From: Alistipes sp. | Lineage (GTDB): Bacteria; Bacteroidota; Bacteroidia; Bacteroidales; Rikenellaceae | DNA length: 64,000 nucleotides | Assembly: GCA_017646625.1 (NCBI GenBank) | Contig: JAGCMF010000013.1 | Span: 1-64,000 of the forward strand | Direction of reading: 5' to 3' | Shown here: piece by piece, positions 14,443 through 30,011 of the stretch | How positions within the stretch are numbered: the first letter of the stretch is position 1 | Layout of the letters: every line of letters starts with the position of its first letter | Notes under the pieces: model-generated | Databases searched by the model: none | What the model saw: the letters and a program-made list of their open reading frames with translations, nothing else | What the model was told of the DNA's origin: nothing | Made by a program: the position numbers and the translations under genes

Positions 14443-15636
14443 ATGGCAACAATAAAGGTGAAATTACGTCTATCACGGGTGATGGATAGAATGGGTGTTG
14501 TGTACTATCAAGTTACCCACCACCGTAGAACGCGGCATATAACGACAAAGTTGAGGGTGAAACCTTCGGAGTGGAATGGTGATAAGGGGCGACCTAATGA
14601 GTCGGCACCTAATAGTATGATTATTCAGAGTCAGATAGATCGTGATGTTGCGACCCTACGAAGGATCATCGACTACTATGAAGACTGCAATAAGGAGTAC
14701 AAAATTGAGGATATTATCAGTCGCTATAGGTCTGTAGATATCAATATTACGACCCTTGATTTCATGCGTGCGCAGGTCGAGCAGCTACGTGCTTCAAATA
14801 GACTGGGAACAGCCAAAAATTATGAGAAGACGATGAGGAGTTTTATGCTATTTTTGGATAATGCACGACTGCCAATATCTGCGCTGACAGAGCAGGTCAT
14901 CAGAGACTATAACACCTTTCTCATTCAGCGGGGATTGGTGCGTAACTCGGTGTCGTTCTACATGCGAGTCATGCGTGCTATATATAACAAGGCTGTGCGG
15001 CAGCGGCTTGTAGAGCAACAGCATCCATTCGTTGAGGTATATACCGGCATTGACCATACGCGCAAACGTGCTGTGTCCGAGTCTATTATTTTGCGTTTGT
15101 GTCGTCTTGAATTGGAGCCTGACTCGCCTCTGGCCATGTGTCGTGACATCTTTATTTTCAGCTACTGCACACGAGGTATGGCATTCGTCGATATAGCCTA
15201 TCTTAAGCGGAGTAACATACAGAATGGGGTGATATGTTATACACGACGTAAGACGGGACAGCTTCTCACAATCAGAATTGAGCCGAGCATACAGCGCATT
15301 ATAGACCGTTATGCAGATGCGAATAGCCCCTATATCTTCCCTATATTGAAGACTCTGGATGCTGTTGAGGCATACGAACAGTATCAATCTGCTCTTAACG
15401 CCTATAATAGGCATCTTGGCCGCTTGTCGAGGATTTTGGGGTGTGGTTGTAGGCTCACATCCTACACAGCACGTCACAGCTGGGCTACGGCAGCAAGAGA
15501 CCATAATGTGCCTATATCTGTCATCAGTCAAGGTATGGGTCATGCGTCGGAATATACCACCCAAATTTATCTTACGATGTTAGAAAATTCGGTTATTGAC
15601 GAGGCTAATAGGAGGATAATTGGTTTTCTGGAGTAA
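14443..15636 (+). CDS. Tyrosine recombinase (probable invertase of the adjacent promoter)
   Basis: A 397-residue site-specific recombinase. The ATG at 14443 gives MATIKVKLRLS, the usual start of Bacteroidetes arm-binding domains; the ATG at 14413 is 10 codons upstream. Residues 1-90 are the arm-binding region, about 105-185 the core-binding SAM-like domain, and about 210-390 the catalytic domain with R244 (CTRGM), K270, Y341-x-x-R344 (YTARHSWAT; Tyr replaces the usual His, as is common in this group), H367 (GMGHAS) and nucleophile Y376. All catalytic residues are present. Two bases after the stop begins the first of three repeat sites, so the inverted segment is almost certainly its substrate. 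No other integrase or phage gene is near. Confidence 0.88.
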   Translation: MATIKVKLRLSRVMDRMGVVYYQVTHHRRTRHITTKLRVKPSEWNGDKGRPNESAPNSMIIQSQIDRDVATLRRIIDYYEDCNKEYKIEDIISRYRSVDINITTLDFMRAQVEQLRASNRLGTAKNYEKTMRSFMLFLDNARLPISALTEQVIRDYNTFLIQRGLVRNSVSFYMRVMRAIYNKAVRQRLVEQQHPFVEVYTGIDHTRKRAVSESIILRLCRLELEPDSPLAMCRDIFIFSYCTRGMAFVDIAYLKRSNIQNGVICYTRRKTGQLLTIRIEPSIQRIIDRYADANSPYIFPILKTLDAVEAYEQYQSALNAYNRHLGRLSRILGCGCRLTSYTARHSWATAARDHNVPISVISQGMGHASEYTTQIYLTMLENSVIDEANRRIIGFLE

Positions 15637-15637
15637 G

Positions 15638-15656
15638 AGTTCCACAAAAGAACTAA
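15638..15656 (+). repeat. Recombination site r1 (left outer)
   Basis: AGTTCCACAAAAGAACTAA. Internally AGTTC and GAACT are inverted around a 7-nt spacer (CACAAAA), the geometry of a tyrosine-recombinase core site. It matches r3 over 19 bp in inverted orientation and starts directly after the recombinase stop codon. Confidence 0.85.
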
Positions 15657-15665
15657 TCAGATATG

Positions 15666-15699
15666 CAAAGTTAATATAAAATATCTTAATATGTTCAAA
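15666..15699 (-). promoter_or_regulatory. Promoter inside the invertible segment, currently pointing left
   Basis: On the minus strand TTTG (15696-15699) is followed after 22 nt by TAACTTTG (15666-15673). The -7 box is a perfect TAnnTTTG; the spacing is slightly longer than the usual 19-20. In this orientation transcription would run across r1 into the antisense strand of the recombinase gene. Confidence 0.6.
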
Positions 15700-15723
15700 T
15701 ATTGGAGACTATTTTCGACCATT

Positions 15724-15740
15724 GTTCCACAAAAGAACTA
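15724..15740 (+). repeat. Recombination site r2 (internal, direct to r1)
   Basis: GTTCCACAAAAGAACTA, identical to r1 over 17 bp and in the same orientation. It is inverted relative to r3, so it could support a smaller 204-bp inversion with r3 or deletion with r1. Confidence 0.8.
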
Positions 15741-15943
15741 TCTTGAATTTATTTGATTTCCAAATACTTATTGCCATATATATGATTAATACGCTGATTA
15801 TTAGCCAATAAAAAATATTTTTTTGCCGATATTCACAACATAAACGTCATTATAGTTTATTGTCCGATTGTTTAAAAAGTTTTTAAATATTTCGTTAAAT
15901 AAGCATTCTACAAATCTTATTATCAAGACAATATCTATAAGTG

Positions 15944-15962
15944 TTAGTTCTTTTGTGGAACT
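15944..15962 (-). repeat. Recombination site r3 (right outer, inverted)
   Basis: The reverse complement of r1 over 19 bp. Including the next base it reads TAGTTC-cacaaaa-GAACTA on the minus strand, so the half-sites are 6 bp. It sits 100 nt upstream of the first fimbrial gene. Confidence 0.85.
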
Positions 15963-16062
15963 AGCAATACTAAATTATTATATTTTGCGAAAAATTATAT
16001 CGCATATTGGTGATGTTTAGGTGGTTATCCACTTGTATTAGAAATTGTAAATATTAAAAACT

Positions 16063-16656
16063 ATGAAACCCAAATGTAGCTTTTTGATATTGCTATTCTC
16101 TATTTTTATTGGAGGTGGCGTATCGAATGTTCATGCACAAGACTGGGCGATAAAGACAAATATAGTCTACGATGCTACTGCTACGGTAAACATCGGCGCA
16201 GAGGTGGGCCTCGCCAAGAGGTGGACACTTGATATCTCGGGTAACCTAAATGCGTGGAGCAAGAATGAGGAGACAAAGTGGAAGCACTGGTTGGCACAGC
16301 CCGAGGCGCGCTACTGGTTTTGTGACCGTTTCTCACGTCACTTCATAGGTGCTCATGCCATCGTCGGAGCCTTCAACTTCGGCGGTATCAACAACAACAT
16401 ATCAATGCTCGGCACGGACTTCTCGGTCTTAAAGGATAACCGTTATCAGGGTTATGCCTATGGTGCTGGTGTGGCCTATGGTTTTGCCTTTATGCTTTCG
16501 GAGCACTTTAACCTCGAACTCGAGGCTGGCTTCGGTTATGCCTATCTCGACTATGAGGTCTTCGACTGCGGTGACTGCGGACGTAGGATTGGTGAAGGTG
16601 GTCACCACTATATTGGCCCTACAAAGGTTGCAATTAATTTAGTATATCTCTTCTAA
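16063..16656 (+). CDS. DUF3575 outer-membrane protein, first gene of fimbrial operon
   Basis: A 197-residue protein with a signal peptide cleaved after VHAQ. DUF3575 is recognisable by WAIKTNIVYDATAT at the mature N terminus, the WLAQPEARYWFCDRF segment and the aromatic beta-strand pattern ending in VYLF. In Bacteroidales this family regularly precedes a DUF3868/OmpA protein and FimA/Mfa1-type fimbrillins, as here. It is probably an outer-membrane barrel helping fimbrial assembly or anchoring; the exact role is not established. Expression likely depends on the invertible promoter 100 nt upstream. Confidence 0.85.
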   Translation: MKPKCSFLILLFSIFIGGGVSNVHAQDWAIKTNIVYDATATVNIGAEVGLAKRWTLDISGNLNAWSKNEETKWKHWLAQPEARYWFCDRFSRHFIGAHAIVGAFNFGGINNNISMLGTDFSVLKDNRYQGYAYGAGVAYGFAFMLSEHFNLELEAGFGYAYLDYEVFDCGDCGRRIGEGGHHYIGPTKVAINLVYLF

Positions 16657-16667
16657 ATCACTTCACA

Positions 16668-18110
16668 ATGAGAGCTATTTTCTTGATCGTTGCTGCTGTT
16701 CTAACCTCTGTTATCAGCTATGCTAAGGAGACAAAAGGTGTTGATATTAAGGATTTTACCTTGGAGCTTAATGAGGATGGTAACCTGAATGTGGCAATAG
16801 ACATAGATTTCACTGACCTAAATATAAAGGCTACACAGGTGGTTGTGCTTACGCCCATTATCGTCAATGGCAATAATTCCGAGGAGTTGATGTCGATAGC
16901 TGTATATGGCCGAAATAGACGTATTTACTATCAGCGTAATGAGGATGTGAAGCCTACCACGGCCGAGGATGTTGAGCTTACGCGCAGTGAGGCGCGTGGT
17001 GTTGTGACATATAGCACATCGCTATATTTTGCCGACTGGATGGATGGTTGTAGTGTTGAGCTTCTTCGTACCGACTATGGCTGCTGTGGTAATCCCTCGA
17101 TGATTGCTCGTGAGAGCCTTGTCGATAGATTTCCTATTGAGACATACCACCCCGAACTTATCTACCTACGTCCCGAGCATGAGGTCGTCAAGACACGTCA
17201 AATAAGTGGCTCGGCATTCGTCGATTTCCCTGTGAGCCAGACTGTCATATATCCTGATTACCGCGATAATAGAGCCGAGTTGGCGAAGATTACCGGCACT
17301 ATTGACGCTGTTGTGAATGACAAGGATGTATCCATAAAGTCTATCTTCATCAAGGGTTATGCCTCACCCGAGAGCCCCTATAGCAACAATACCCGCTTGG
17401 CCAAGGGGCGTACCGAGGCTTTGAAGGTCTATGTTGAGAATATCTATCACTTTGGTGAGGGCTTCATCAAGACGGACTATGAGCCCGAGGATTGGGCGGG
17501 CCTCGCGCGATATGTCGAGACCTCGACACTTGCGCATAAGGAGGATATTTTGGCTACCATACATTCGGATAGAGACCCTGATACTAAAGAGTGGATTATC
17601 AAGTCTACATGGGAGGATGAGTATCGCTTCTTGTTGGACAACTGCTACCCCGCCTTGCGACATTCGGACTATGTCATCGAGTATGAGATTAGGAGCTATA
17701 GTAACCCTGTGGAGATAGAGCAGATACTTCGCACTGCACCTCAAAATCTATCCTTGGAGGAGTTTTACATTCTCGCCCAGACATACGAGCCTGGCAGTGA
17801 TAAGTTTAATGAGCTGTTTGAGACTGCTGTGAGGATGTATCCTAATGACCCTGTTGCAAACCTCAATGCCGCGAACTCGGCAATATTGAAGCACGACTAT
17901 CGCAGTGCTCTTCGCTATCTCGATAATGCGGGTGATATGGCCGAGGCGGTATATACGCGTGGCGTGTTGGCGGTATATATGGATAATCAAGCCGAGGCAA
18001 GGCAATACTTTGAGGAGGCGCAGAGGCTTGGCATACCACAGGCAGAGGTTGCCCTTGTGGAGATTGCGAAGAATAGGAATATCGTGACTATGAATAATAA
18101 TAACAGATAA
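16668..18110 (+). CDS. DUF3868/OmpA-like fimbrial accessory protein with TPR tail
   Basis: A 480-residue exported protein. Residues 1-17 form a signal peptide. About 20-170 is the DUF3868 region (FTLELNEDGNLNVAIDIDF). About 200-330 is an OmpA-like domain recognisable by IKGYASPESPYSNN and RLAKGRTEALKVYV, which in the family contacts peptidoglycan. The C-terminal part holds tetratricopeptide-like helices (NLNAANSAILKHDYRSALRYL, shortened here; VYTRGVLAVYMDN). It follows the DUF3575 gene by 11 nt. It may anchor the assembly platform to the cell wall; inference from family context. Confidence 0.82.
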   Translation: MRAIFLIVAAVLTSVISYAKETKGVDIKDFTLELNEDGNLNVAIDIDFTDLNIKATQVVVLTPIIVNGNNSEELMSIAVYGRNRRIYYQRNEDVKPTTAEDVELTRSEARGVVTYSTSLYFADWMDGCSVELLRTDYGCCGNPSMIARESLVDRFPIETYHPELIYLRPEHEVVKTRQISGSAFVDFPVSQTVIYPDYRDNRAELAKITGTIDAVVNDKDVSIKSIFIKGYASPESPYSNNTRLAKGRTEALKVYVENIYHFGEGFIKTDYEPEDWAGLARYVETSTLAHKEDILATIHSDRDPDTKEWIIKSTWEDEYRFLLDNCYPALRHSDYVIEYEIRSYSNPVEIEQILRTAPQNLSLEEFYILAQTYEPGSDKFNELFETAVRMYPNDPVANLNAANSAILKHDYRSALRYLDNAGDMAEAVYTRGVLAVYMDNQAEARQYFEEAQRLGIPQAEVALVEIAKNRNIVTMNNNNR

Positions 18111-18146
18111 ACAAACAAATCAATTTATTAACTTAATTTTTGCTTT

Positions 18147-19712
18147 ATGAAAAAGTATCTATTTATTGCACTTGCAGCATTAGGTTTTGCTGCTTGTGAG
18201 AAGAGTGCTGACGACAACAACGTTCAGCAGAATGGTGAGTTGGAGCAGTCATACGTGGCTATCACACTCGCTGCCGACGACATCACACGCGCATCTGATG
18301 GTGTGTATGAGGAGGGTCGTGATGAGGAACGTGCTGTTAAGTCTGCTTACGTATTCTTCTTCAAGGATGGTGCTGCTTTCCCCGTAGCATTTGATGGCAC
18401 TACTTCAACTAACGCAGGTGTAACCAACTACTTGCAGGTTAACTTGACTGGCAATAATACAAATATGGACAATGTATCTGATGTTAAGGATGCTGTTCTT
18501 GTTCTTCAGAACTACAAGGGTGAGTATCCTAACCAGATTGTAGCTGTCCTCAACTGGAATCCTACAGCCAAGTCATCATACACTCTTAGCGAGCTTCAGA
18601 CAAAGATTTCAGCATTGGGTGATGATGCAAATGGTTATGTTATGAGCAACGCTGTATATGCTGACAACGCAGATCAGGTGGTAGATGCTGTTGATTTGAC
18701 AATTGCGAACATCGGTAAGACTGCTGATGAGGCTTTGGCTCATCCTGTAACAATCCATGTAGAACGTGTTGCTGCTAAAGTGGTGTTTACTGCCGATAAC
18801 GGTGGTAAGTTCGACGTAGAGAAGGAGATTGATGGTAAAAAAGTATATGCGCAGATCATGGGCTTCGAGCTTTACAACGACTACCAGGAGTCTTGGCTTA
18901 TCAAGCGTATCGACCCATCTTGGACAGATATGGGCTTCAACTGGAATGATGCTGACTGGTTCCGTTCATACTGGGCACAGTCACTCGGCAAGGCATTCGA
19001 TGAGAATACTTTCGCGTGGACTACTGACAACACAGATATGGGTGGTTACGTATATTGCGGTGAGAACACTCGTGCTTGGACAGAGGATGCTGATGTTCGT
19101 ACAAAGGTAGTTGTTAAGGCGCAGCTTGTAGACGTTGATGGTAGCCCATTCGAGGTTGTTAACTGGTACGGTAAGGACTACATCGGCGAGGGAGACCTCT
19201 TGACTGTTGTTGCTAACACTCTTAAGAACACTTACTTCTCATCTGCAGATGGTACTACTTTCGTTGGTCTTACTCCTGCTGATATCAAATGTGTTGATCG
19301 TCTTGTAACTGACGCCAAGGCTTATGAGGTATACTTCCAGCTCTCTGATGCTGGCGCAGCAAAGAGCTGGTATAAGTATGAGGGTGGCAACTATACGGCT
19401 ATTAATGTGGCAGATTTCAACACAGCTCTTGCAGCTGTTCAGCCAGCTCTTGTTTACAAGAATGGTATGACATACTACTGGCTCGACATCAAGCACCTTG
19501 GTGCTGCTGGTAAGACCGCAGAGTATGGTATCGTTCGTAACCACGTCTACAAGGTGAATATCAACGACATCACTGGCTACGGTACACCTGTTTATGATGG
19601 TACATCTGACTTCATCAATCTTGAGAAGCCAGAGGATATCGTAACATACGTATCTGCACAGATTAACATCCTCTCTTGGCGAGTTGTTGATAACGACTAC
19701 GACTTGGAGTAA
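18147..19712 (+). CDS. Mfa1/FimA-type major fimbrillin, copy 1
   Basis: A 521-residue prepro-lipoprotein (lipobox LGFAAC). The pattern YVAITLAADDITRAS places an Arg at residue 48, close to Arg49, after which Porphyromonas Mfa1 is known to be cleaved before polymerisation. ERAVKSAYVFFF starts the N-terminal fimbrillin domain, and IVAVLNW, VERVAAKVVF, YVYCGENT and the final AEYGIVRNHVYKVNI...ILSWRVV follow the P1/Mfa1 pattern. The extreme C-terminal strand is a plausible donor-strand element. Followed by a stem-loop and a second, similar fimbrillin. Confidence 0.88.
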   Translation: MKKYLFIALAALGFAACEKSADDNNVQQNGELEQSYVAITLAADDITRASDGVYEEGRDEERAVKSAYVFFFKDGAAFPVAFDGTTSTNAGVTNYLQVNLTGNNTNMDNVSDVKDAVLVLQNYKGEYPNQIVAVLNWNPTAKSSYTLSELQTKISALGDDANGYVMSNAVYADNADQVVDAVDLTIANIGKTADEALAHPVTIHVERVAAKVVFTADNGGKFDVEKEIDGKKVYAQIMGFELYNDYQESWLIKRIDPSWTDMGFNWNDADWFRSYWAQSLGKAFDENTFAWTTDNTDMGGYVYCGENTRAWTEDADVRTKVVVKAQLVDVDGSPFEVVNWYGKDYIGEGDLLTVVANTLKNTYFSSADGTTFVGLTPADIKCVDRLVTDAKAYEVYFQLSDAGAAKSWYKYEGGNYTAINVADFNTALAAVQPALVYKNGMTYYWLDIKHLGAAGKTAEYGIVRNHVYKVNINDITGYGTPVYDGTSDFINLEKPEDIVTYVSAQINILSWRVVDNDYDLE

Positions 19713-19722
19713 TCAAATTTGG

Positions 19723-19758
19723 CTACCGACTTTATGGTCAATGCCGTTGAGTCGGTAG
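19723..19758 (+). terminator. Stem-loop between the two fimbrillin genes
   Basis: CTACCGACT (19723-19731) pairs perfectly with AGTCGGTAG (19750-19758). Followed by TCCTGTTT, a weak T-tract. It could partly terminate transcription or stabilise the upstream message, favouring copy 1. Confidence 0.6.
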
Positions 19759-19792
19759 TCCTGTTTAATCAATAACTAATGGTAGATATTAT

Positions 19793-21466
19793 ATGAAAAA
19801 GTATCTATTTTTAGCAGTGGCACTCCTTGGCATGGCATCGTGCGCAAAGGATGACATCGCTAATGGTAATAACCCTATCCACAGCGGAGAGATCGAGGAG
19901 TCATATATCGCCATCAACCTCTCTGCATCTGATATCACACGTGCTCAAACTGGTTTTGAGGATGGCACTGCGGAAGAACGTGCCGTTCACCACGCCGATT
20001 TCTTCTTCTTCGATGAGGCGGGTAATCCGTTCAATGTAACTGGTAACCCTGCAACAACTTCTGGTGGTGCAACAAATCACTTGCATGCTGCAGATATTAC
20101 ATTTGCTACTGATGAGGATGGTGGTGATGATATCTCTGATTCATCAGCGGCAGTCCTCTTGCTTCAGACATACAAGGGCGAGTATCCAAGTCAGATTGTT
20201 GCAGTTCTTAACTGGAGTCCCGATACCAAGCCTTACACATTAGATGAGTTGCACGCTGCAGTAAACCTTACTGGCAAGTGGGATACCGAAGACTACTTTG
20301 TAATGAGCAATGCCGTATATGCACAGAATGGCAAGGCTGTTTATGCTACACCTCTGTCGTACGACAATATCAAGTCAAGCGAGAAGGATGCCGAGAATAA
20401 TCCAGTGAGCATCTATGTTGAACGTGTGGCTGCAAAGGTTAAGTTGGAAACATCAGCAAAGTATGACTTGCAAGAGGAGGTTATGTATCATCCTCTTGGC
20501 GGCACCACAACCATAGAGGGTGGCGTCTTTGCAAAGATTATTAGCTGGGACCTCTATCGTGATAACACCCAGTCTCAACTCCTTAAGGTGATTGACGAGA
20601 CTTGGACTGATGATTCTTTAGGCTTCCCATGGAACAATGCTCCTTGGTATCGTAGCTACTGGGCAGAATCGTTGTCTGCTCCAACAGATGACCAAATCTT
20701 TGGAAACTCTCCTTTTACTCCTGGTACCCATACCTATATCGGTGAGAATACCACCGGCAAAGAGAGTTGCACAAAGGTGGTTATCAAGGCCCAGTTGGTG
20801 ACAACTGTTGGTGAAGAAGATAAGCCTCTCGAGCTTGCAATTTGGAATAATGTAGAGTATGTTGATGAGGTTGCCGATGAAGAATCAAAGGGCGGTGAAT
20901 CACTTCGTATTGCTGTTGCTAACACCCTCAAAAATACATACTTTGCAAATACCAAAGATGGTTATGTAGGCCTTATGCCAGAGGATTTGAAGTGCGTAGC
21001 AGGTGGTGGCGAGGGCGCCCCAGAAGGTGTTAAGGCAAACGAGGTTTATTTCCAGTTGTCAGAGACAGGTGAGGCAAAGGATTGGTACAAGCTCGTAAAT
21101 GGTGAGTATAAGCCAGTGGCTGATGATATCACCAAAGATGCCAATAGTAAAGCAGCAACAAATAATGCTCTAAAGAGTGTCCCTGCAGCTGTGCTTTATA
21201 AGAGTGGTGAGACATTCTACTATGTAGATATCAAGCACCTCGGTGCTGCTGGCAAACCTGCAGAGTATGGTATTGTTCGTAATCACGTCTACAATGTCAA
21301 AATTAACACAATCAAGGGTTATGGCAGCCCTGTCTACACAGGTGTTAGCTACCTTGAGTACCCACAGATTACCGAGCAGAGTACATTTGTATCGGCACAG
21401 ATCAATATCCTCTCTTGGAGATTGGTGAATCAGGAGGTAGATATTGAAACAAATCCAAGTAATTAA
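19793..21466 (+). CDS. Mfa1/FimA-type fimbrillin, copy 2
   Basis: A 557-residue paralogue of the preceding gene with the same blocks: lipobox GMASC, YIAINLSASDITRAQ (Arg at residue 50), ERAVHHADFFFF, IVAVLNW, VERVAAKV, a WYRSYWAESL segment, AEYGIVRNHVYNV and a final INILSWRLV. It is longer than copy 1 mainly through acidic loops near 270-300 and 340-350. It may be a second structural subunit or an alternative pilin. Followed by another stem-loop. Confidence 0.87.
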   Translation: MKKYLFLAVALLGMASCAKDDIANGNNPIHSGEIEESYIAINLSASDITRAQTGFEDGTAEERAVHHADFFFFDEAGNPFNVTGNPATTSGGATNHLHAADITFATDEDGGDDISDSSAAVLLLQTYKGEYPSQIVAVLNWSPDTKPYTLDELHAAVNLTGKWDTEDYFVMSNAVYAQNGKAVYATPLSYDNIKSSEKDAENNPVSIYVERVAAKVKLETSAKYDLQEEVMYHPLGGTTTIEGGVFAKIISWDLYRDNTQSQLLKVIDETWTDDSLGFPWNNAPWYRSYWAESLSAPTDDQIFGNSPFTPGTHTYIGENTTGKESCTKVVIKAQLVTTVGEEDKPLELAIWNNVEYVDEVADEESKGGESLRIAVANTLKNTYFANTKDGYVGLMPEDLKCVAGGGEGAPEGVKANEVYFQLSETGEAKDWYKLVNGEYKPVADDITKDANSKAATNNALKSVPAAVLYKSGETFYYVDIKHLGAAGKPAEYGIVRNHVYNVKINTIKGYGSPVYTGVSYLEYPQITEQSTFVSAQINILSWRLVNQEVDIETNPSN

Positions 21467-21487
21467 ATGCTAATATAGCAGTGTTTC

Positions 21488-21521
21488 AAGGGGTCGCCAG
21501 GCGACTGCTCGACGACCCCTT
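21488..21521 (+). terminator. Stem-loop after the second fimbrillin gene
   Basis: AAGGGGTCG (21488-21496) pairs with CGACCCCTT (21513-21521) around a GC-rich loop, followed by CTTAAAATTAA. It separates the abundant subunits from the presumed minor subunits that follow. Confidence 0.6.
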
Positions 21522-21571
21522 CTTAAAATTAACTATGGGCGATAGCCCTGCACATAATAAATAGTAGTAAA

Positions 21572-22609
21572 ATGAACAGAGTGCATATATTCAGAAGAGT
21601 ACTTCTCGCATCGGCAATGGTGGTGGCGATGCTGGCGGCATCTTCGTGTAAGGATGGCCTCATCTTCGATGGAGAGGGCGACTGCGGCATATATTACCGC
21701 ATACGCTTTAAGTATGACTACAACATAAAGTTTGCTGACGCCTTCGCTAATGAGGTGAACTCCGTAGCACTCTACATCTTCGACGAGAGTGATACCCTTG
21801 TCGATAATATCACCACCATAGATAAGCAATCACTATCATCGGGTACCTTCGAGATACCTCTCGAACTAGAGCCCGGAGAGTATACACTTCTGGCTTGGGG
21901 CGGACTTATGAACGAAGAGTCGTTCGATATGCTGGCTGATGCAACGGTTGGCGAGACGAAACTCGAGGATATGCAGGTGATGATGCGCCGCGAGCATAAC
22001 GATAGTGGTGAGGCGACGGTAAGTGAAGATCTCTTGCCGCTATATCATGGTACATTGGCTCTCGAGGTGGCCGACATCCCTGGCACCTACACAGAGACGA
22101 TGTCACTCATGAAGGATACAAATGCAGTACGCATACTGCTTCACGAGATGTCGGGACATGATGTGGATGCAGATAAGTTTATATTTGAGATTAGAGATAA
22201 TAATGGCCTCTACGACTGGGACAACAGACTCCTTGAGGATGAGGATATAATATATTCGGCATGGTATCAGGCTACTGGCTCTGCCGAGATGGATGAGTCT
22301 GACACACGCACGGTGACAGAGGTAAATGTGGCACTCGCAGAACTCGCCATAGGTCGCATTAGGGCAGATAACTCGCCAATACTTCATATCAGAAGCCGCG
22401 AGACAGGCGAGGACCTCGTACGTCTACCTTTTGCCGAGTATGCGCTGCTGGTGAAGGGATACTATAGAGGTGGCATGGGCGATCAGGAGTATCTCGATCG
22501 TCAGGATGAGTACACCATGACACTCTTCCTCAATGAGGGTGAGTGGGTGAGCTCGCAGATCATTATTAACGGTTGGCGTGTGGTATACAACGACACGAGC
22601 ATCAACTAA
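21572..22609 (+). CDS. FimB/Mfa2-family fimbrial anchor
   Basis: A 345-residue lipoprotein (lipobox AASSC). CGIYYRIRFKYDYNIKFAD followed by NSVALYIFDESDTLV, ELEPGEYTLLAWGG and a final SSQIIINGWRVVYND is the FimB/Mfa2 pattern. Characterised relatives in Porphyromonas lie at the base of the fimbria, anchor it in the outer membrane and limit its length. No Arg-cleavage (TR) motif follows the lipobox, in keeping with an anchor that stays lipidated. It lies between the fimbrillins and the presumed tip genes, the usual order. Confidence 0.9.
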   Translation: MNRVHIFRRVLLASAMVVAMLAASSCKDGLIFDGEGDCGIYYRIRFKYDYNIKFADAFANEVNSVALYIFDESDTLVDNITTIDKQSLSSGTFEIPLELEPGEYTLLAWGGLMNEESFDMLADATVGETKLEDMQVMMRREHNDSGEATVSEDLLPLYHGTLALEVADIPGTYTETMSLMKDTNAVRILLHEMSGHDVDADKFIFEIRDNNGLYDWDNRLLEDEDIIYSAWYQATGSAEMDESDTRTVTEVNVALAELAIGRIRADNSPILHIRSRETGEDLVRLPFAEYALLVKGYYRGGMGDQEYLDRQDEYTMTLFLNEGEWVSSQIIINGWRVVYNDTSIN

Positions 22610-22649
22610 TAACCCGACATCTGGAGATATAATAAGACACGATATTTAG

Positions 22650-24272
22650 ATGAATAGTTTGGTAAAATATGTAGTAGTGCTTATCTGTGGTGCACTCTCT
22701 GTGTCGTGCGTATTCGATACAGAGCACTGCATCCCACAGGTGCCCCTCGCGCCAGTGGTACTCGAGGGTGAGCATACTATATCCTTTACCATAGGCTTTG
22801 ATGCCTCGACAACACGTGTGTCGTGCGACGAGACTGACGATGCTATACCTTTTGACTACTATATCAATCCCGAGACGCTACGTGTGATGCTCACCGACAT
22901 GGATAGTAACCCTATTGGTGAGGTTGAACGCCTCTACATATGGCCTACAAACGAGGCACAGACAGAGTTTGAGTTCACAGGAAAGCTCCCCGAGGGTCTC
23001 GTCTTCTACCCCGAAAAGCCACAGTATAAGCTCTTTGCTATGGTTAATGCTCCGCGTGAGGCCCTCGACAATGAGTTAACACTATATCGTCAGGAGAGAC
23101 TCGACCCACGTAATGAGGGTAGCGCAATACCTATGTGGGGTGTCACAACGGTTGACCTTTCACCCGCCGTGAACGCCGATAACTACAAGATTACTAACCC
23201 ATTGTGGATGTTGCGTTCGGCGGCAAAGATTGAGGTGCAGCTCTCCCAAACCCTCAAGGATAGGGGCACCGAGATAACATCGGCAACAATGAAGTACTAC
23301 AATGTTGAGGGATATGTCGCCCCTGCTAACTGGCATAGCTTTGGCGATACACAAGATGTAGACTGCGAGGCCGCCATACACGTATATCGCCATGCTGCTG
23401 TCAAACTCCCTCTGATAAAGGATGAGGCTACGGGCAACTACTATGTATATATGCCCGAGTATGACAATAAGAACTATCCTGGCGAACGTAATAAGATAAG
23501 CCTTACGATGATTCACTCCGGGAAGGAGGAGGTTTTTGAGGATGCTATCTCGTTCTGTGAGTATAGCGATGGCGCTATAATGGATGGTAGCGACTATAAC
23601 ATCGTGCGTAACCACATATATAGGTTCACCATTCGTTCCATATCGGGCTCGAGCATTGCTCTCGACTACACCGTGGCAGACTGGAGCTCGGAGGATTGGG
23701 ATGGCAATGGCAAGGGGTATGAGGAGCATGACCTATCATATCCTACATACCACAATCCCGTTGTGCCGTATGAGTTTTTGGGTCTCACAGGCACCGCGCA
23801 GTCTAACTATGTCATTACTCGGGAGCCTACGATGATGTACTATGGTGTTGGTAACCCCGAGGATGGCGGTTTCCACTGCTACTTCCAGATTATAGCACCC
23901 AAGGCTGTGAAGTGGAAGCCTGTGTTTATGGGCTCAAAGGAGAACTATCAGATTCGTGTATATCTCGTAGATAAGAAACTTAACGAGTCTGGGGAGGTTA
24001 TATTTGACTCGGCTGTGTCAGGCAAGCAGGGCGATATCAAGGCATGTGAGGTCGGCGAGTGGTACCATATTGTTGTCTTCCCCCTCAGTGACGATGGCGC
24101 AGATAGCTCTGTCATAGAGTTTGGTATCTCATATTATCAGGCATGGACAGACCAGTACATCAACCTCTATGTGAATGGAGAGTACGATAATATCAGATGG
24201 CCTAATAGTGGCAATAACCCAAAGATTATAAACATTAGACACATCTCGGCACAAATTGTTGATGAGGAGTAA
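22650..24272 (+). CDS. Minor fimbrial subunit lipoprotein
   Basis: A 540-residue lipoprotein (lipobox LSVSC). The N-terminal half has fimbrillin-like features: TISFTIGFDASTTRVS, YKLFAMVNAP, WMLRSAAKIEVQLS and IVRNHIYRFTIRSISG. After about residue 350 (VADWSSEDWDG) a second domain without a known family name follows, rich in aromatic strands (YYGVGNPEDGGFHCYFQII). By position and architecture it is likely an accessory subunit near the tip, comparable to Mfa3/Mfa4 in role; homology to those is not claimed. Gap to the next gene is 9 nt. Confidence 0.65.
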   Translation: MNSLVKYVVVLICGALSVSCVFDTEHCIPQVPLAPVVLEGEHTISFTIGFDASTTRVSCDETDDAIPFDYYINPETLRVMLTDMDSNPIGEVERLYIWPTNEAQTEFEFTGKLPEGLVFYPEKPQYKLFAMVNAPREALDNELTLYRQERLDPRNEGSAIPMWGVTTVDLSPAVNADNYKITNPLWMLRSAAKIEVQLSQTLKDRGTEITSATMKYYNVEGYVAPANWHSFGDTQDVDCEAAIHVYRHAAVKLPLIKDEATGNYYVYMPEYDNKNYPGERNKISLTMIHSGKEEVFEDAISFCEYSDGAIMDGSDYNIVRNHIYRFTIRSISGSSIALDYTVADWSSEDWDGNGKGYEEHDLSYPTYHNPVVPYEFLGLTGTAQSNYVITREPTMMYYGVGNPEDGGFHCYFQIIAPKAVKWKPVFMGSKENYQIRVYLVDKKLNESGEVIFDSAVSGKQGDIKACEVGEWYHIVVFPLSDDGADSSVIEFGISYYQAWTDQYINLYVNGEYDNIRWPNSGNNPKIINIRHISAQIVDEE

Positions 24273-24281
24273 CAGTAGAGT

Positions 24282-26675
24282 ATGAGAGATAGAATACTAC
24301 ATATAATTGCCTTGGTTGCGATGTCGCTTATGGCGGTGTCGTGCTCGACGGTGCTCGACGACGAGCCAGGACTTAATGGCGACAACTATATAACTCTTAA
24401 TTTCAAGGTGCCAGGCGTGGATACGCGCGGTGAGGTGGCAGACAACGATTTTGAGTCATATGTGAGCCATCTCGACGTGGTAATATATGAGTATAGCGAC
24501 AAGACATACACTCCATTCTATCACCAACGCATAGATGTCTCTGCCTCCGCTAATGGCAGGGCAATAATCGCGAAGACCAAGAGTGATTTTAAGGAGAATA
24601 TCCTCTATCGCTTTTTTGTCATTGCAAATAGCACGCATGATAGTTCGGTATACTACGATAATAACGGCAATATCCTCAACTACGACACATTCATAAAGCT
24701 CGATCAGACAGATAACTATATCCACCTGTCGGGTATCGAGTTTGGCGTTCATGGCTCTATATACCCACAGATGTTCCTTATGGATGGCATTGCCGATGTT
24801 GTTAATGGCGAGCCTGCGGTGGCGGGTAACATTGTTATTAACGATCCCACAAAAGATGAGGATGTTACAATTAGTGTTACACTACGACGAGCTGCCGCCA
24901 AGGTGCAGATATCCATCACCCCAGGTGAGAAGGTGACACTGACAAAGGAACTTATGGATAGGTCGAGTGGATATATGGTGCGCAATATGCCTATTAGAAC
25001 TACGCTAACCGCCGAGGGTGGCTATCCACGTAACGATGCCGGTGCAAACCCATATTGGAAGTCATCGACCATCTCGCAGACCCCATATTTCGAGTTGATA
25101 CCCACGGCTGGTGATAATTATCAAATACGACTAACACTATACTGCTACTCGCATACATGGCAGAAAGACCAGGTGTTCGATAGGGGTACATCTGTGGTGG
25201 TTATGATTCCAATGATATACGATGGCGTTGAGTATGTGAACAACTACTATCAGATATCGTTTAGTAAGAAGGAGGGTGATATAGATGAGTCGTACCACCT
25301 TATCAAGCGTAATACATACTACGACCTACGCATCAACCTTAATGCCCCTGGAGCCGAGGACTTCAACGAGCCAGAGGCGATTGAGGATGTCACATACTTT
25401 ACTGCACCATGGGAGAGGGTAGACCTCGATATTTCGGGCGAGAATACCGTTAAGTACCTTAAGGTAAGTAGAGATAAACTCTATATGTATAACATCAGTG
25501 ATGATGATTCATCACTATACTTCTCATCCTCTTCGCCCGTAACCGTCACTCTCGTGTCGAATAGTGCGTACTACTACGATAAGTACAACGTTAAGAAGAC
25601 GTTACGTGATAGCGATGTAGATATCCATGCTGCCTCAACCGAGGTGGGCGCAACATCGGGAAATATCTCGGTGCATAGTGATATCCCGACAAACAACACC
25701 ATTCGTTACTTCCAACTTATGGTAAGAAACCAGGATGGTTTGAGTGAGATTATAGATGTTGAGCAGTATCCGCTTATCTACATCACCAATGACCTACCAT
25801 GGTACTCCTACCGTGATGACTACTACTATCGCACTACGGGCAACCACGGTTGGGCTGGAAATGTGACTAAAGGTACAGCATCGGGTGATTTGCCAACGAC
25901 GTTTAGATATGGTGGAGACCATATCACAAGTATCTCTACTATTGACAGGGTAGATGTCGATACAAAGACGGTGAGGTATACCTACACAAGTGCAACTCCA
26001 GGCAGTAGTAAGGGTTGGACCGCTTCGAAGGTTAGGGGTAACAAGGTTACTAATAGCCAGCACTACGCCATACAGTACTACTACTACTCTTATAGCAGAA
26101 ATTCATGGAGTAGTAAAACGGCAAGTTGCGAGAATCATAATGTCCGTAACTACCATGTGCGAGTTATGGCATCGTCGAAAGAGTATACGCTTGGCCGCCC
26201 CGCATTGGATGAGTATGGTTATACTGCGGGGGATGAGGAGAATGCAAGACTCGTCTCTCCATCATTCGTCATTGCATCGCGTCTGGGTGCCGTGCTATCA
26301 ACCTATAGTGGTTTGTCGAGTATGTCAAACGATAAGAAGCTTATTGTCTTTGCTGACCACTGCAAGAACTATGTCGAGGTAGACGATGTTAACGACGACA
26401 AGAAGGACCCTACAGTCGTCTACGACAACTGGCGACTACCCACCGAGGCGGAGCTAAATATCATCATCGGACTTCAAGGTGAGGTGGAGGCTAATGCCGA
26501 GGCTATAGACTATCTGCTTAATGGTAGATATTATATGAGTGCGAGTGGTCCAGTGTATAATCCGAAGAATACTCCAGGTCAGCAGAATGGTAAGTACTTG
26601 CCCCCTGAACCGCCGTTTGATAATCACTGGAATGCTACAGATGTCGCTATTCGATGCGTTAGAGATGCCTATTAA
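24282..26675 (+). CDS. Fimbrial tip-like lipoprotein with FISUMP/DUF1566-like C terminus
   Basis: A 797-residue lipoprotein (lipobox MAVSC). VDTRGEV follows the lipobox. The N-terminal half has fimbrillin blocks (FESYVSHLDVVIYEY, LRRAAAKVQISI, YHLIKRNTYYDLRI). A middle Tyr/Ser-rich part (about 500-620) has many YYY and SYS runs. The C-terminal 80 residues contain DNWRLPTEAELNIIIG, YYMSASG and VAIRCVRDAY, the signature of Fibrobacter-type/DUF1566 domains often found in adhesins. Likely a minor or tip subunit; inference. Confidence 0.68.
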   Translation: MRDRILHIIALVAMSLMAVSCSTVLDDEPGLNGDNYITLNFKVPGVDTRGEVADNDFESYVSHLDVVIYEYSDKTYTPFYHQRIDVSASANGRAIIAKTKSDFKENILYRFFVIANSTHDSSVYYDNNGNILNYDTFIKLDQTDNYIHLSGIEFGVHGSIYPQMFLMDGIADVVNGEPAVAGNIVINDPTKDEDVTISVTLRRAAAKVQISITPGEKVTLTKELMDRSSGYMVRNMPIRTTLTAEGGYPRNDAGANPYWKSSTISQTPYFELIPTAGDNYQIRLTLYCYSHTWQKDQVFDRGTSVVVMIPMIYDGVEYVNNYYQISFSKKEGDIDESYHLIKRNTYYDLRINLNAPGAEDFNEPEAIEDVTYFTAPWERVDLDISGENTVKYLKVSRDKLYMYNISDDDSSLYFSSSSPVTVTLVSNSAYYYDKYNVKKTLRDSDVDIHAASTEVGATSGNISVHSDIPTNNTIRYFQLMVRNQDGLSEIIDVEQYPLIYITNDLPWYSYRDDYYYRTTGNHGWAGNVTKGTASGDLPTTFRYGGDHITSISTIDRVDVDTKTVRYTYTSATPGSSKGWTASKVRGNKVTNSQHYAIQYYYYSYSRNSWSSKTASCENHNVRNYHVRVMASSKEYTLGRPALDEYGYTAGDEENARLVSPSFVIASRLGAVLSTYSGLSSMSNDKKLIVFADHCKNYVEVDDVNDDKKDPTVVYDNWRLPTEAELNIIIGLQGEVEANAEAIDYLLNGRYYMSASGPVYNPKNTPGQQNGKYLPPEPPFDNHWNATDVAIRCVRDAY

Positions 26676-26687
26676 AATTGACGAGAG

Positions 26688-29600
26688 ATGAAACAAATCA
26701 TATACATATTCACACTATTGCTCCTTCTGCTGTGCTCATGCGTGCAGGAGGATGTGGTCGTTACACCTGTTGTAGATGATGTGCCCGAGGGTTATGTTAA
26801 GATAACCTTCACCGCGAACATATCATCGCCCACCACAGATGTGGCTACACGTGCCGTAGACCCTGATGGCTTGGATGTGAATAATATGACACTCTTCTGT
26901 TTCAATGAGTTTGGCCTATATATAAGCTCCGAGGAGGCTACGCTTAAGCCTGGTAGTAAGACCCAGGATGGTATCTCCGAGAGTGGTGTGTATACCGCTG
27001 TTGTGCCTAACCATACACAAATCATCCACTTCCTTGCTAACCATAGTAGTGGTCTCTATAATGAACAGGACTTTCCTGGACAGACTGAAAGTATGGTTGT
27101 GGCTAACATGGAGGGTGGCTCTGGTATGCTTGTTTATTGGTCGCGTTTCGAGATGGATGCCAATAATAGCAAGCCTATTGATGAGCAACTCATGGACCTC
27201 ACTTACCAGATTCATGGCACCACTTATAAAGGTGTAAAGCTTATTCGAAATCAGGCGAAAGTAACTATCGGTAATTGGAATACCGACGATTTCATCGTTA
27301 CGGGCTTCCGCACTGTCAACATCCCTGCCTTCGGCACCGTGGCCCCACACCATCCAGACCGTAAGTTTGATATTGTGGATGATTGGGAGACTACCGAAGA
27401 GTTTGTGACGCTGCCCAACAATCAGGCCTTGATGTCTGATATCTCGGATATCAACACCAAGCCCGTAGACTATATATTCGAGAGTGATAACTCGGGTGAC
27501 AGACTCATCAGCGTTATCATCAAGGGTCATGCACGCGGTAAGACCGAGGCCGACGATATGTACTATCGTGTGGTTATGCAGAATCACGATGGTAGCAACT
27601 TTATGATTCGTCGCAACCACCACTACAACATCAATATTACAGGTATGCTCACCTTTGGTCAGGATAGCTTCGAGAAGGCATTGACTGCTGCCGCCTCCAA
27701 CAATGCGTGGATATCTATCGACGAGTGGGTAAATGAGATCTCGGATGGTGTGGAGACACTATGGGTGGAGCAGACAAGCTATGTGTTAAGTAGCGACACA
27801 TACGCCGGTACCAACTGGTCGATACCTTATCGATATACATATAATGGTAAGGGTAGTAGTGAGGCTCCAACGGTAACGTGGATTGATAATAACGTGGCAT
27901 ATAACAACATCACAAATAACTATAATACCACAACAGGTGAGGGCTCTTTGCTGCTACGCCTATACCCTATGTATGATGGTAATGAGCAACAGACGGGTAC
28001 GCTGCTTATCAAACATGGTAAGTTGCAGCGTAAGATATCTGTATACATTATTCGTACCCAGCATTTTACACCCTCGTGGATATCGTCACAGATATATGGT
28101 GTCGCCGACGAGCATGTCACCCTAATGTTCACCGTGCCTGATACCTGCCCCGATGCCCTCTTCCCATTCACGGTGCTGGTGTCAGTAAACCATCTTGATG
28201 TGCGTTCTGACTCTGGTGCGCAGCTGCCTGTATACATTAAGGGTGAGGAGGGTTACTTTGGTACCGACTGGGAGGGTATCAATTATAAGTATGCCTACAC
28301 AGTAACCGAGCCTGGCAAACACCGTCTACATATGCGTTCTATCCTAAAGCATGAGGATGGTGATATGGAGGAGGTGCATCTCGAGGCTAATTTCTTTGAG
28401 ACTATCACCAAAAATGCGATATTCAGTGGATACGACCATGTGCATCGCAGAATCTTTGTTGATAACCTCCACTCCTATGGTAATATGTATGCCGATGATG
28501 AGGAGCTATACTATATGCTTGTGCCACAGAAGCGCGCTCACCCCATTGTGTTTACTATAATGTTGGAGGAGAGAGGGGACGATGGCACGTACACATCGCT
28601 AAACCATGCTGCTAATCCTGGTAGCGAGCAGTGGCATAAGAATGGACATGACGAGTTTTTGATATACTCGAAGAGGTTTAGTGACTATCGAACCTATTAT
28701 GATAATCACGAAGATAGATACGAGGAGATTCAGGATCTTGCATGGGAGGGTGATGTGATACTCTTCAATGAGGAGTATTGGAGTACAAATGGTCGTGTTA
28801 TGGCATTCCGCACACAGGACTATAAGACTACTTCATTAATAGAAGAAGAGTTGTATGGCCTTCAGGAGGATGGTACGTATAACATCTACTTTTTGACAAA
28901 TAGTGCAGATAATAGGGATGTTGTGCGTGTCGCATCTAACAATGTGTTGAGTCCTCACGCCTTTAAGACTACGCGTGATGGTAGAATATTGGATCACGAC
29001 TACTGTGGTAATGAATACCGTTCTGTAATCTTTGATGTTGCACACTATAGACCCTACCGCTTTGCTGCACAGATAAGAGTCTCGGAGGGAGGTGCAAATA
29101 GTGAAATGACGATAATCCCCAGTGATGACGAACTCTTAAGTAATGAGCAACATGGCTCCCAAGAGGAGAATGTAGACGATGTAGTTTTTAGTTATAAGCC
29201 TGGTCAGCAGGTCGATATACTCTTTGATATCACAAGTTTTAAGGGCTCTGATGGCTGCTCTGTACACCCTTTTGGCGAGAACTTTGGTGACCATTTCGAG
29301 GTGTACATAGACGCCCCAATGCTCGAGATAGACTATGGCCGCTACCCCGCGAGTTGGTATAAGGAGAATAATGGCTCGGGATTGAATGTTGACAAGCTGC
29401 GCCCTCATCCTACAATCCCCGGACGATTTATCTATACCGTAGACCGTCACCGTGACCACGAACGTCACTTTGGCGACAGCAATCTCCAGGTGGTAAATAG
29501 GGATGCTTCGAAGATAGAGTTCAATAAGTTTGGTCAGAAGGAAGTGACAGCAGGTATCGACCAGACGGGTGAACGTAAGCTGTTGCCATTCAAGAAGACG

Positions 29601-30011
29601 GCTATTACGGCAGGTGGTAATATCTATATTACGACTGATAAGGATAGGATTGTGTTCTGGGATAAGACCTTCAATGTGGATACGGAGCACATCAAGGGTG
29701 AGATATACTACATGAAGGATGGACAGCCTCTTCCTGTCCCCCAAGATGCCTTTGTGGCCTTTGTACGTCTGCGTACAGGTGCACGAATAGGCGTGGTGAC
29801 AATCACGCAGAGTGGCGCTTTTGAGCTCAACTTGCGTGATGAGTACCAGTTTGCATGGGATGATGATAGTATCGACTTTTACTATACCGATTCAGAGGGT
29901 GTGACATACAACTTCAACTATATGGAGAATGGTGTAGCCAAGAGTATCGACTTGAATCTCCTCTATACACTTGTGGAACGTGGTGAATCTATTGTGCTGA
30001 CCCAGGAGTAG
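26688..30011 (+). CDS. Large fimbrial tip-like lipoprotein (DUF4906-like)
   Basis: A 1107-residue lipoprotein (lipobox LLCSC), the largest and last gene of the fimbrial operon. After VATRAVDPDG come fimbrillin-type blocks (VNNMTLFCFNEFGLYIS, KLIRNQAKVTIGNW, MIRRNHHYNINITG) and WISIDEW. The long remainder is strand-rich and contains WRTY-type aromatic segments and a VFWDKTFNVDTEHIKGEIYY region that I cannot assign. Size and last position suit a tip adhesin, as with the large Mfa5-type genes ending other clusters. No von Willebrand motif was seen. Confidence 0.65.
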   Translation: MKQIIYIFTLLLLLLCSCVQEDVVVTPVVDDVPEGYVKITFTANISSPTTDVATRAVDPDGLDVNNMTLFCFNEFGLYISSEEATLKPGSKTQDGISESGVYTAVVPNHTQIIHFLANHSSGLYNEQDFPGQTESMVVANMEGGSGMLVYWSRFEMDANNSKPIDEQLMDLTYQIHGTTYKGVKLIRNQAKVTIGNWNTDDFIVTGFRTVNIPAFGTVAPHHPDRKFDIVDDWETTEEFVTLPNNQALMSDISDINTKPVDYIFESDNSGDRLISVIIKGHARGKTEADDMYYRVVMQNHDGSNFMIRRNHHYNINITGMLTFGQDSFEKALTAAASNNAWISIDEWVNEISDGVETLWVEQTSYVLSSDTYAGTNWSIPYRYTYNGKGSSEAPTVTWIDNNVAYNNITNNYNTTTGEGSLLLRLYPMYDGNEQQTGTLLIKHGKLQRKISVYIIRTQHFTPSWISSQIYGVADEHVTLMFTVPDTCPDALFPFTVLVSVNHLDVRSDSGAQLPVYIKGEEGYFGTDWEGINYKYAYTVTEPGKHRLHMRSILKHEDGDMEEVHLEANFFETITKNAIFSGYDHVHRRIFVDNLHSYGNMYADDEELYYMLVPQKRAHPIVFTIMLEERGDDGTYTSLNHAANPGSEQWHKNGHDEFLIYSKRFSDYRTYYDNHEDRYEEIQDLAWEGDVILFNEEYWSTNGRVMAFRTQDYKTTSLIEEELYGLQEDGTYNIYFLTNSADNRDVVRVASNNVLSPHAFKTTRDGRILDHDYCGNEYRSVIFDVAHYRPYRFAAQIRVSEGGANSEMTIIPSDDELLSNEQHGSQEENVDDVVFSYKPGQQVDILFDITSFKGSDGCSVHPFGENFGDHFEVYIDAPMLEIDYGRYPASWYKENNGSGLNVDKLRPHPTIPGRFIYTVDRHRDHERHFGDSNLQVVNRDASKIEFNKFGQKEVTAGIDQTGERKLLPFKKTAITAGGNIYITTDKDRIVFWDKTFNVDTEHIKGEIYYMKDGQPLPVPQDAFVAFVRLRTGARIGVVTITQSGAFELNLRDEYQFAWDDDSIDFYYTDSEGVTYNFNYMENGVAKSIDLNLLYTLVERGESIVLTQE

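Follow-up and report, generated by a model that had tools for sequence, protein, structure and literature searches.

A predicted invertible promoter with a local tyrosine recombinase upstream of a type V fimbrial operon in Alistipes

The window, by which we mean the whole 64,000-nucleotide stretch of Alistipes sp. DNA that was analysed, contains a tyrosine recombinase gene, a promoter-bearing segment between inverted repeats, and an eight-gene fimbrial operon (Table 1). This arrangement is very probably a phase-variation switch, in which a local invertase flips the segment between repeats r1 and r3 to switch a type V fimbrial operon, with the sequenced state being off. In the mechanism that we propose, the recombinase would recombine r1 with r3 and so invert the intervening DNA. 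As sequenced, the one promoter would point back towards the recombinase, into the 3' end of its gene, with the operon off; in the inverted orientation the promoter box would lie at 15927–15934 on the plus strand, pointing over r3, and the eight genes would be transcribed with a leader of about 120 nt. The computed position of the inverted box is the one given by an earlier reading made from the letters of the DNA (the sequence-only reading). From the comparisons below we infer that the segment flips in the window strain, that the adjacent recombinase catalyses this, and that the operon is expressed according to orientation.

Table 1. Features of the recombinase, the invertible segment and the fimbrial operon, in window coordinates
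Feature	Positions	Strand	Basis
Tyrosine recombinase (predicted invertase), 397 aa	14443..15636	+	ORF and translation, Pfam, catalytic positions
r1, recombination site (predicted), core GTTC-CACAAAA-GAAC	15638..15656	+	site comparison
Promoter (predicted), -7 box TAACTTTG at 15673-15666	15664..15711	-	matrix from 12 relatives
r2, third site, direct copy of r1	15724..15740	+	position and core kept in 3 relatives
Rest of invertible segment, strong promoter not found	15741..15943		box and matrix scan
r3, recombination site (predicted), inverted to r1	15944..15962	-	site comparison
Leader between r3 and first fimbrial gene	15963..16062	+	best plus-strand matrix score -3.3 bits
Gene 1, DUF3575	16063..16656	+	Pfam PF12099, E 1.7e-70
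Gene 2, DUF3868	16668..18110	+	Pfam PF12984, E 2.6e-9
Gene 3, Mfa1-family fimbrillin	18147..19712	+	NCBIfam NF038041 above cut-off
Gene 4, second Mfa1-family fimbrillin	19793..21466	+	NCBIfam NF038041 above cut-off
Gene 5, Mfa2-type anchor	21572..22609	+	Pfam PF08842, E 7.4e-60
Gene 6, no family match at E<=0.001; lipoprotein-like start by look	22650..24272	+	relatives in syntenic operons
Gene 7, FimD-type tip adhesin	24282..26675	+	NCBIfam NF052322, 439 bits, cut-off 170
Gene 8, 1107 aa, no family match at E<=0.001	26688..30011	+	relatives in syntenic operons

Repeat r1 follows the recombinase gene after a single intervening base and, as the sequence-only reading had noted, recurs inverted as r3, the two being complementary at 19 of 19 positions with 287 nt between them. 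That reading did not describe r2, an exact 17-nt copy in the orientation of r1 that lies 85 nt from it, start to start. The cores of the three sites are identical, with short inverted arms around a 7-nt middle, which we take to be the form of a tyrosine-recombinase crossover site. Allowing up to 3 mismatches, the site matches three places in the window (mean 0.01 in shuffled sequences), and at up to 2 mismatches there are three copies in the 1.87-Mb assembly (37 contigs, 90.7% complete, with the window at the start of contig C13), all at this locus. The 7-nt middle varies between genomes (CACAAAA, CACGAAA, TATCAAA, TACCAAA or CGTAAAA), and the visible copies agree within each locus except in L091 (1 mismatch) and L074 (3), as expected if the sites of a locus recombine with each other.

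Two other interpretations of the repeats were considered and rejected. A global system, with one invertase and sites at many loci, does not fit three site copies (up to 2 mismatches, in an assembly 90.7% complete) that are all at one locus, and a terminator or an integrase att site does not fit repeats that are inverted, about 300 nt apart, linked to a promoter and found in both orientations.

The inverted pair flanks a predicted promoter, the arrangement that characterizes a Bacteroidales invertible promoter. Its -7 box lies 12 nt inside the r1 core and points at the recombinase; it is the sole TAnnTTTG between the repeats on either strand, so that the one perfect box facing away from the operon in the sequence-only reading stands. 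A box somewhere in a segment this AT-rich is unsurprising, being present in 46% of resampled sequences, while only 4.5% of them have an outward-facing box no more than 20 nt from a repeat. We identified the promoter by comparison, using a 48-nt matrix built from 12 relatives with the window and one near-duplicate left out. The matrix gives the minus-strand site a score of 20.6 bits, and the next best score between 15600 and 16062 is 0.3; 99% of 500 resampled sequences fall below 11.8 bits, and the shuffled 95% level is 8.1. This site is the best match in the 64 kb. Five other places in the window exceed 9 bits, the best reaching 17.5, and none of them lies between 3.6 and 39.7 kb; therefore, outside the segment, nothing of similar score is directed at the operon. 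Downstream of r3 we found no fixed promoter, the best plus-strand score in 15925–16062 being -3.3 bits (ATATTTTG at 15980) as against 20.6. The matrix is weak for distant members of the family: when left out in turn, L032 scores -0.7, L076 5.0 and L068 7.6, and these 3 of 14 segments are thus below the shuffled 95% level.

An intact tyrosine recombinase adjoins the sites, as is typical of Bacteroidales invertible promoters with a local invertase. Its reading frame is open over the full length, and it carries the Pfam domains Arm-DNA-bind_5, Phage_int_SAM_5 and Phage_integrase, corresponding to arm-binding, SAM-like and catalytic domains. The claim of the sequence-only reading that all catalytic residues are present has to be modified: alignment places R244, K270, R344, H367 and Y376 at catalytic positions, but Tyr (Y341) takes the place of the His found in the aligned XerA-type sequence, giving YxxR instead of HxxR. 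Because this Tyr is found in 27 of 27 aligned family members, the window included, we regard it as a trait of the family and not as damage; the other catalytic positions are identical in all 27.

Searching the genus gave 26 recombinase matches at E<=1e-100, in 25 of 180 genomes. Behind 12 of these is an inverted pair of the r1/r3 type, the right site being degenerate in L074, and in two more the contig ends after the near site or sites (L066, and L067 with r1 and r2). No such repeat pair was found for the remaining 12, among which L072 was examined over a shorter sequence, and membership of the recombinase family does not therefore by itself imply a switch. In a tree, the window recombinase groups with six close relatives (support 98/94) whose loci include both orientations.

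The related loci provide the principal argument for inversion. After their boxes had been seen, we defined a set of 14 complete segments that adjoin a recombinase (L026–L032, L069, L009, L068, L074, L091, L075 and L076). All 14 have an outward TAnnTTTG no more than 20 nt from one of the repeats, where 0.63 would be expected from resampled sequences. The set leaves out L066, L067 and L005, which run into contig ends, L018 and L010, where there is a single site, and L023, whose pair is complete but which has no recombinase in the stretch examined and no exact box; counting L023 in gives 14 of 15. The box is at the recombinase-side repeat, the off orientation, in eight segments (the window, L027, L028, L009, L068, L032, L075 and L076) and at the far repeat, pointing downstream, in the six that are on (L029, L030, L031, L069, L074 and L091). 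When the segments were compared with one another by BLAST, 15 pairs of different loci matched at E<=1e-3, and the strands of these matches follow the orientations assigned from the boxes: the 9 pairs whose orientations differ all match on opposite strands, and the 6 whose orientations agree all match on the same strand. The strongest reversed pair is L009 (off) and L091 (on), with 80% identity over 260 nt; others are L009 and L031 (on), with 71% over 216 nt, and L027 (off) and L030 (on), with 84% over 55 nt. The truncated segment of L066 likewise has a reversed match to L028 (77% over 84 nt).

Both orientations thus occur among homologous loci, and they do so among the relatives only (8 off, 6 on). 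The segment of the window has only its self-match at E<=1e-3 and hence no significant reversed match among the relatives' segments; its best match elsewhere, to L067 (E 0.004), is co-oriented. A reversed segment in related genomes, which the sequence-only reading had proposed to look for, is accordingly found as reversed homologous pairs among the relatives but not for the window's own segment. The contigs of L005 and L018 stop no more than 2 nt from where the 17-mer ends on its inner side, and those of L066 and L067 break off within the segment. An assembly would break at such points if the sampled population contained both orientations, which is a possible explanation, as are other causes.

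A scan for the exact 17-mer gave 22 stretches, four of which have two inverted copies 283–284 nt apart (L009, L022, L023 and L024), and L021 is a fifth inverted pair with one mismatch; L024 is the same locus as G015:C1, L022 as G174:C25 and L021 as G362:C23. A pattern search for site pairs in 393 genomes returned G362 and the window's own genome and, with a shorter gap, G038. As about 30 chance matches to an exact 17-mer are expected in 257 Gb at equal base composition, single matches were not counted as evidence, and the single-site loci L005, L010 and L018 were considered for their surroundings only. In a viral collection seven stretches have one 17-mer each, with no pair.

The eight genes downstream (16063–30011) are co-directional and, to judge from their family matches, form a type V pilus operon: they include genes for stalk (Mfa1, twice), anchor (Mfa2) and tip (FimD) pilins, the combination that defines operons of the FimA/Mfa1 type. 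Relatives of genes 1 to 8 occur in the same order in 6 of 7 regions from other genomes, with one to three fimbrillins, and the seventh has relatives of genes 1 to 7 in order before being cut by the region end. No match to the window recombinase is found in these seven syntenic regions. More broadly, relatives of the DUF3575 protein at E<=1e-40 are present in 94 of 180 genomes of the genus. We examined 19 other DUF3575 loci from this search. None of them (0/19) has a recombinase of the window family beside it, in a flank of up to 1.5 kb, and paired repeats of 14 nt or longer are likewise lacking from the 700 nt upstream (0/19), the upstream flank being shorter in L101 (312 nt) and L108 (868). 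One genome, G025, has both this fimbrial operon without the switch and a switch before another operon. The best plus-strand matrix scores in 400 nt at the 19 loci range from -1.3 to 13.6; with scores this low a fixed promoter of the switch type is not shown there, and the comparison establishes only that the recombinase is missing. The proposal of a switch in the sequence-only reading thus gains support from several sides, namely cassettes of relatives in both orientations, reversed homologous segments, co-varying sites, the same operon in relatives that lack the recombinase, and the absence of a comparable promoter facing the operon from outside the segment.

The genome of the window contains a second DUF3575-led fimbrial operon (G000:C32:40313-40867), examined up to its first fimbrillin, and the stretch upstream of it contains TATGTTTGCA and resembles those of several relatives. 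This genome (loci L119–L145) also has runs of G8–G9 at 15 places, of which 12 are exactly G9, three are G8 and none is longer; 14 of the 15 are outside ORFs longer than 150 aa in the flank examined, and five are 84–219 nt upstream of paralogous lipoprotein genes with DUF6562. Runs of G8–G10 also occur in the 400 nt before DUF3575 at 7 of the 19 relatives' loci (L102, L104, L105, L108, L110, L112 and L118). The 27 overlapping G 8-mers are close in number to the roughly 29 that base composition gives, but this does not account for the preference for exactly nine. Possibly these runs reflect slipped-strand phase variation.

The arrangement might instead be a decayed switch, whose segment formerly inverted and is now locked off in the window genome. 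Decay does appear to have occurred among the relatives: the recombinase of G015 (on) has two in-frame stops, that of G060 (off) has one, and that of G154 (on) matches only from residue 148, with 3 mismatches in one of its sites, so that by sequence all three look like switches frozen in one state. The window recombinase is moreover on a long branch, 0.34 as compared with 0.01–0.08 for its six closest relatives. However, its full-length reading frame, catalytic positions that are as in the 26 relatives aligned, and three identical site cores make a locked state improbable. It is harder still to credit that the repeats and the recombinase are left over from an integrated element and do not affect expression of the operon. 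Many tyrosine recombinases with this fold are integrases, and the 12 of 26 relatives in which no repeat pair was found are in keeping with such an origin, but remnants would not be expected to have inverted sites about 300 nt apart with an outward promoter in all 14 complete segments beside a recombinase and in both orientations. We retain the model of a working r1–r3 switch.

Within that model the third site raises the question of whether r2 takes part, so that the device has a brake or more than two states; this would be a refinement of the r1–r3 switch and not its opposite. Inversion between r2 and r3 would turn only the part without a promoter and leave the promoter in place, and recombination between r1 and r2, which are direct copies, could delete the promoter. 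A role for r2 is suggested by its position, 84–88 nt from r1 in four loci (the window, L027, L028 and L067), and by its core, which in all four equals that of the other visible sites of the locus even though the core differs among loci. Against this, the part of the segment beyond r2 has turned together with the promoter end in L066 relative to L028, and has stayed with it in L067 relative to both L028 and the window. In these three informative comparisons the two parts are in phase, which speaks for r1–r3 as the usual event. In addition, r2 is present in 3 and absent from 8 of the 11 complete segments compared (L032, L075 and L076 being left out of this count), and a spacing of 85 nt is short for synapsis. 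We consider participation of r2 unlikely, and in the literature searched we found no report of a third inverted repeat in an invertible promoter.

The operons that follow related switches are varied. By family models, the leading gene in G025 and G183 has a NusG domain; G015 has M48 peptidase and TIR genes, G174 has FHA and kinase genes (with a phosphatase-like neighbour matching PADLOC PDC-M21C) and L009 has a radical-SAM gene. G154 has a TIR-like protein (PADLOC ThsB model, E 1.2e-6), G038 has AAA and dynamin-like genes (Pfam AAA; PADLOC IetA 1.5e-30 and LeoBC 9.9e-13), and G214 has a tubulin-like protein that is below cut-off. By look, the first genes of G028, G015, G154, L009, L018 and G185 resemble the NusG-domain gene, G183 and G185 have capsule-type genes, and L091 has peptidase and radical-SAM genes. 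The protein adjoining the NusG-domain gene in G025, with similar ones in G001 and G028, has no Pfam match. The term defence-like is used here for model matches and nothing further.

At L060, L086, L058 and L085, switch recombinases of the same lineage precede operons with M48 peptidase, TIR, AAA/dynamin-like or FHA/kinase genes, and these operons, some of which match defence models, are possibly cases of phase-variable defence. The segments of L009 (off) and L091 (on) precede operons with radical-SAM and peptidase-like genes, that of L009 together with a small Cys-rich ORF. Past the far repeat at L027, L030, L031, L009 and L018, the NusG-like gene begins with near-identical DNA (TTGTCAATGGGACAAACGA) that could give the message a hairpin at its start. 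The promoter end of L010 (146–230) is 98% identical to that of L091 over 66 nt and adjoins what by look is a NusG-like gene start, and the sequence beyond differs; no second site was found in L010 at up to 3 mismatches. A broader proposal would be that r2 is a working crossover or binding site and that the cassette is a portable switch placed before unrelated operons (fimbriae, capsule-like, radical-SAM, and TIR, AAA, dynamin or kinase defence-like), making possible defence operons phase-variable. As a whole we regard this proposal as doubtful.

The window switch joins a known kind, and its unusual points are the third site and the varied range of cargo of one recombinase lineage. In the fim switch of Escherichia coli a promoter segment of about 300 bp is inverted by two dedicated tyrosine recombinases to turn type 1 fimbriae on and off; the window resembles it in having a promoter on a predicted invertible segment of about 300 bp and differs in the unrelated pilus and the number of recombinases. 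Among Bacteroidales, it is established that tyrosine recombinases invert DNA upstream of genes for surface structures, including fimbrial ones (PMC12632263, PMC11892184). The inversions in Bacteroides fragilis that affect outer surface proteins (Weinacht et al. 2004, as described in PMC12632263) share with the window a tyrosine recombinase and, as predicted for the window, DNA inversion and a phase-variable locus, in their case with an adherent or aggregative phenotype and an ORF matching a fimbrial protein (PMC12632263); they differ in genus, and the window has a third site copy. The capsule promoters of B. fragilis (UpxY/UpxZ) similarly invert upstream of a surface-structure operon, and NusG-domain first genes occur in the cargos of the window's relatives, whereas the capsule system has one global invertase for seven loci and the sites of the window are at a single locus (PMC12632263). 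In gut bacteria, genes of the FimB/Mfa2 family lie beside promoter-carrying invertons, a gene family and arrangement as in the window, and tyrosine-type invertases near invertons are mostly placed beyond the drive of the inverton promoter, as is also the case here (PMC11892184). The word Alistipes does not appear in the main text of that paper, and the accessible part of it does not mention a third site.

The locus adds a switch that is well supported and whose sequenced state is given as off, in a genus on whose switches we found little in the literature searched, and its relatives include natural examples of on, off and decayed forms. If the portable-cassette proposal were true, one recombinase lineage would have made fimbrial, capsule-like and defence-like operons phase-variable within a genus, and this would bear on surface diversification of gut Bacteroidales and perhaps on their responses to phage.
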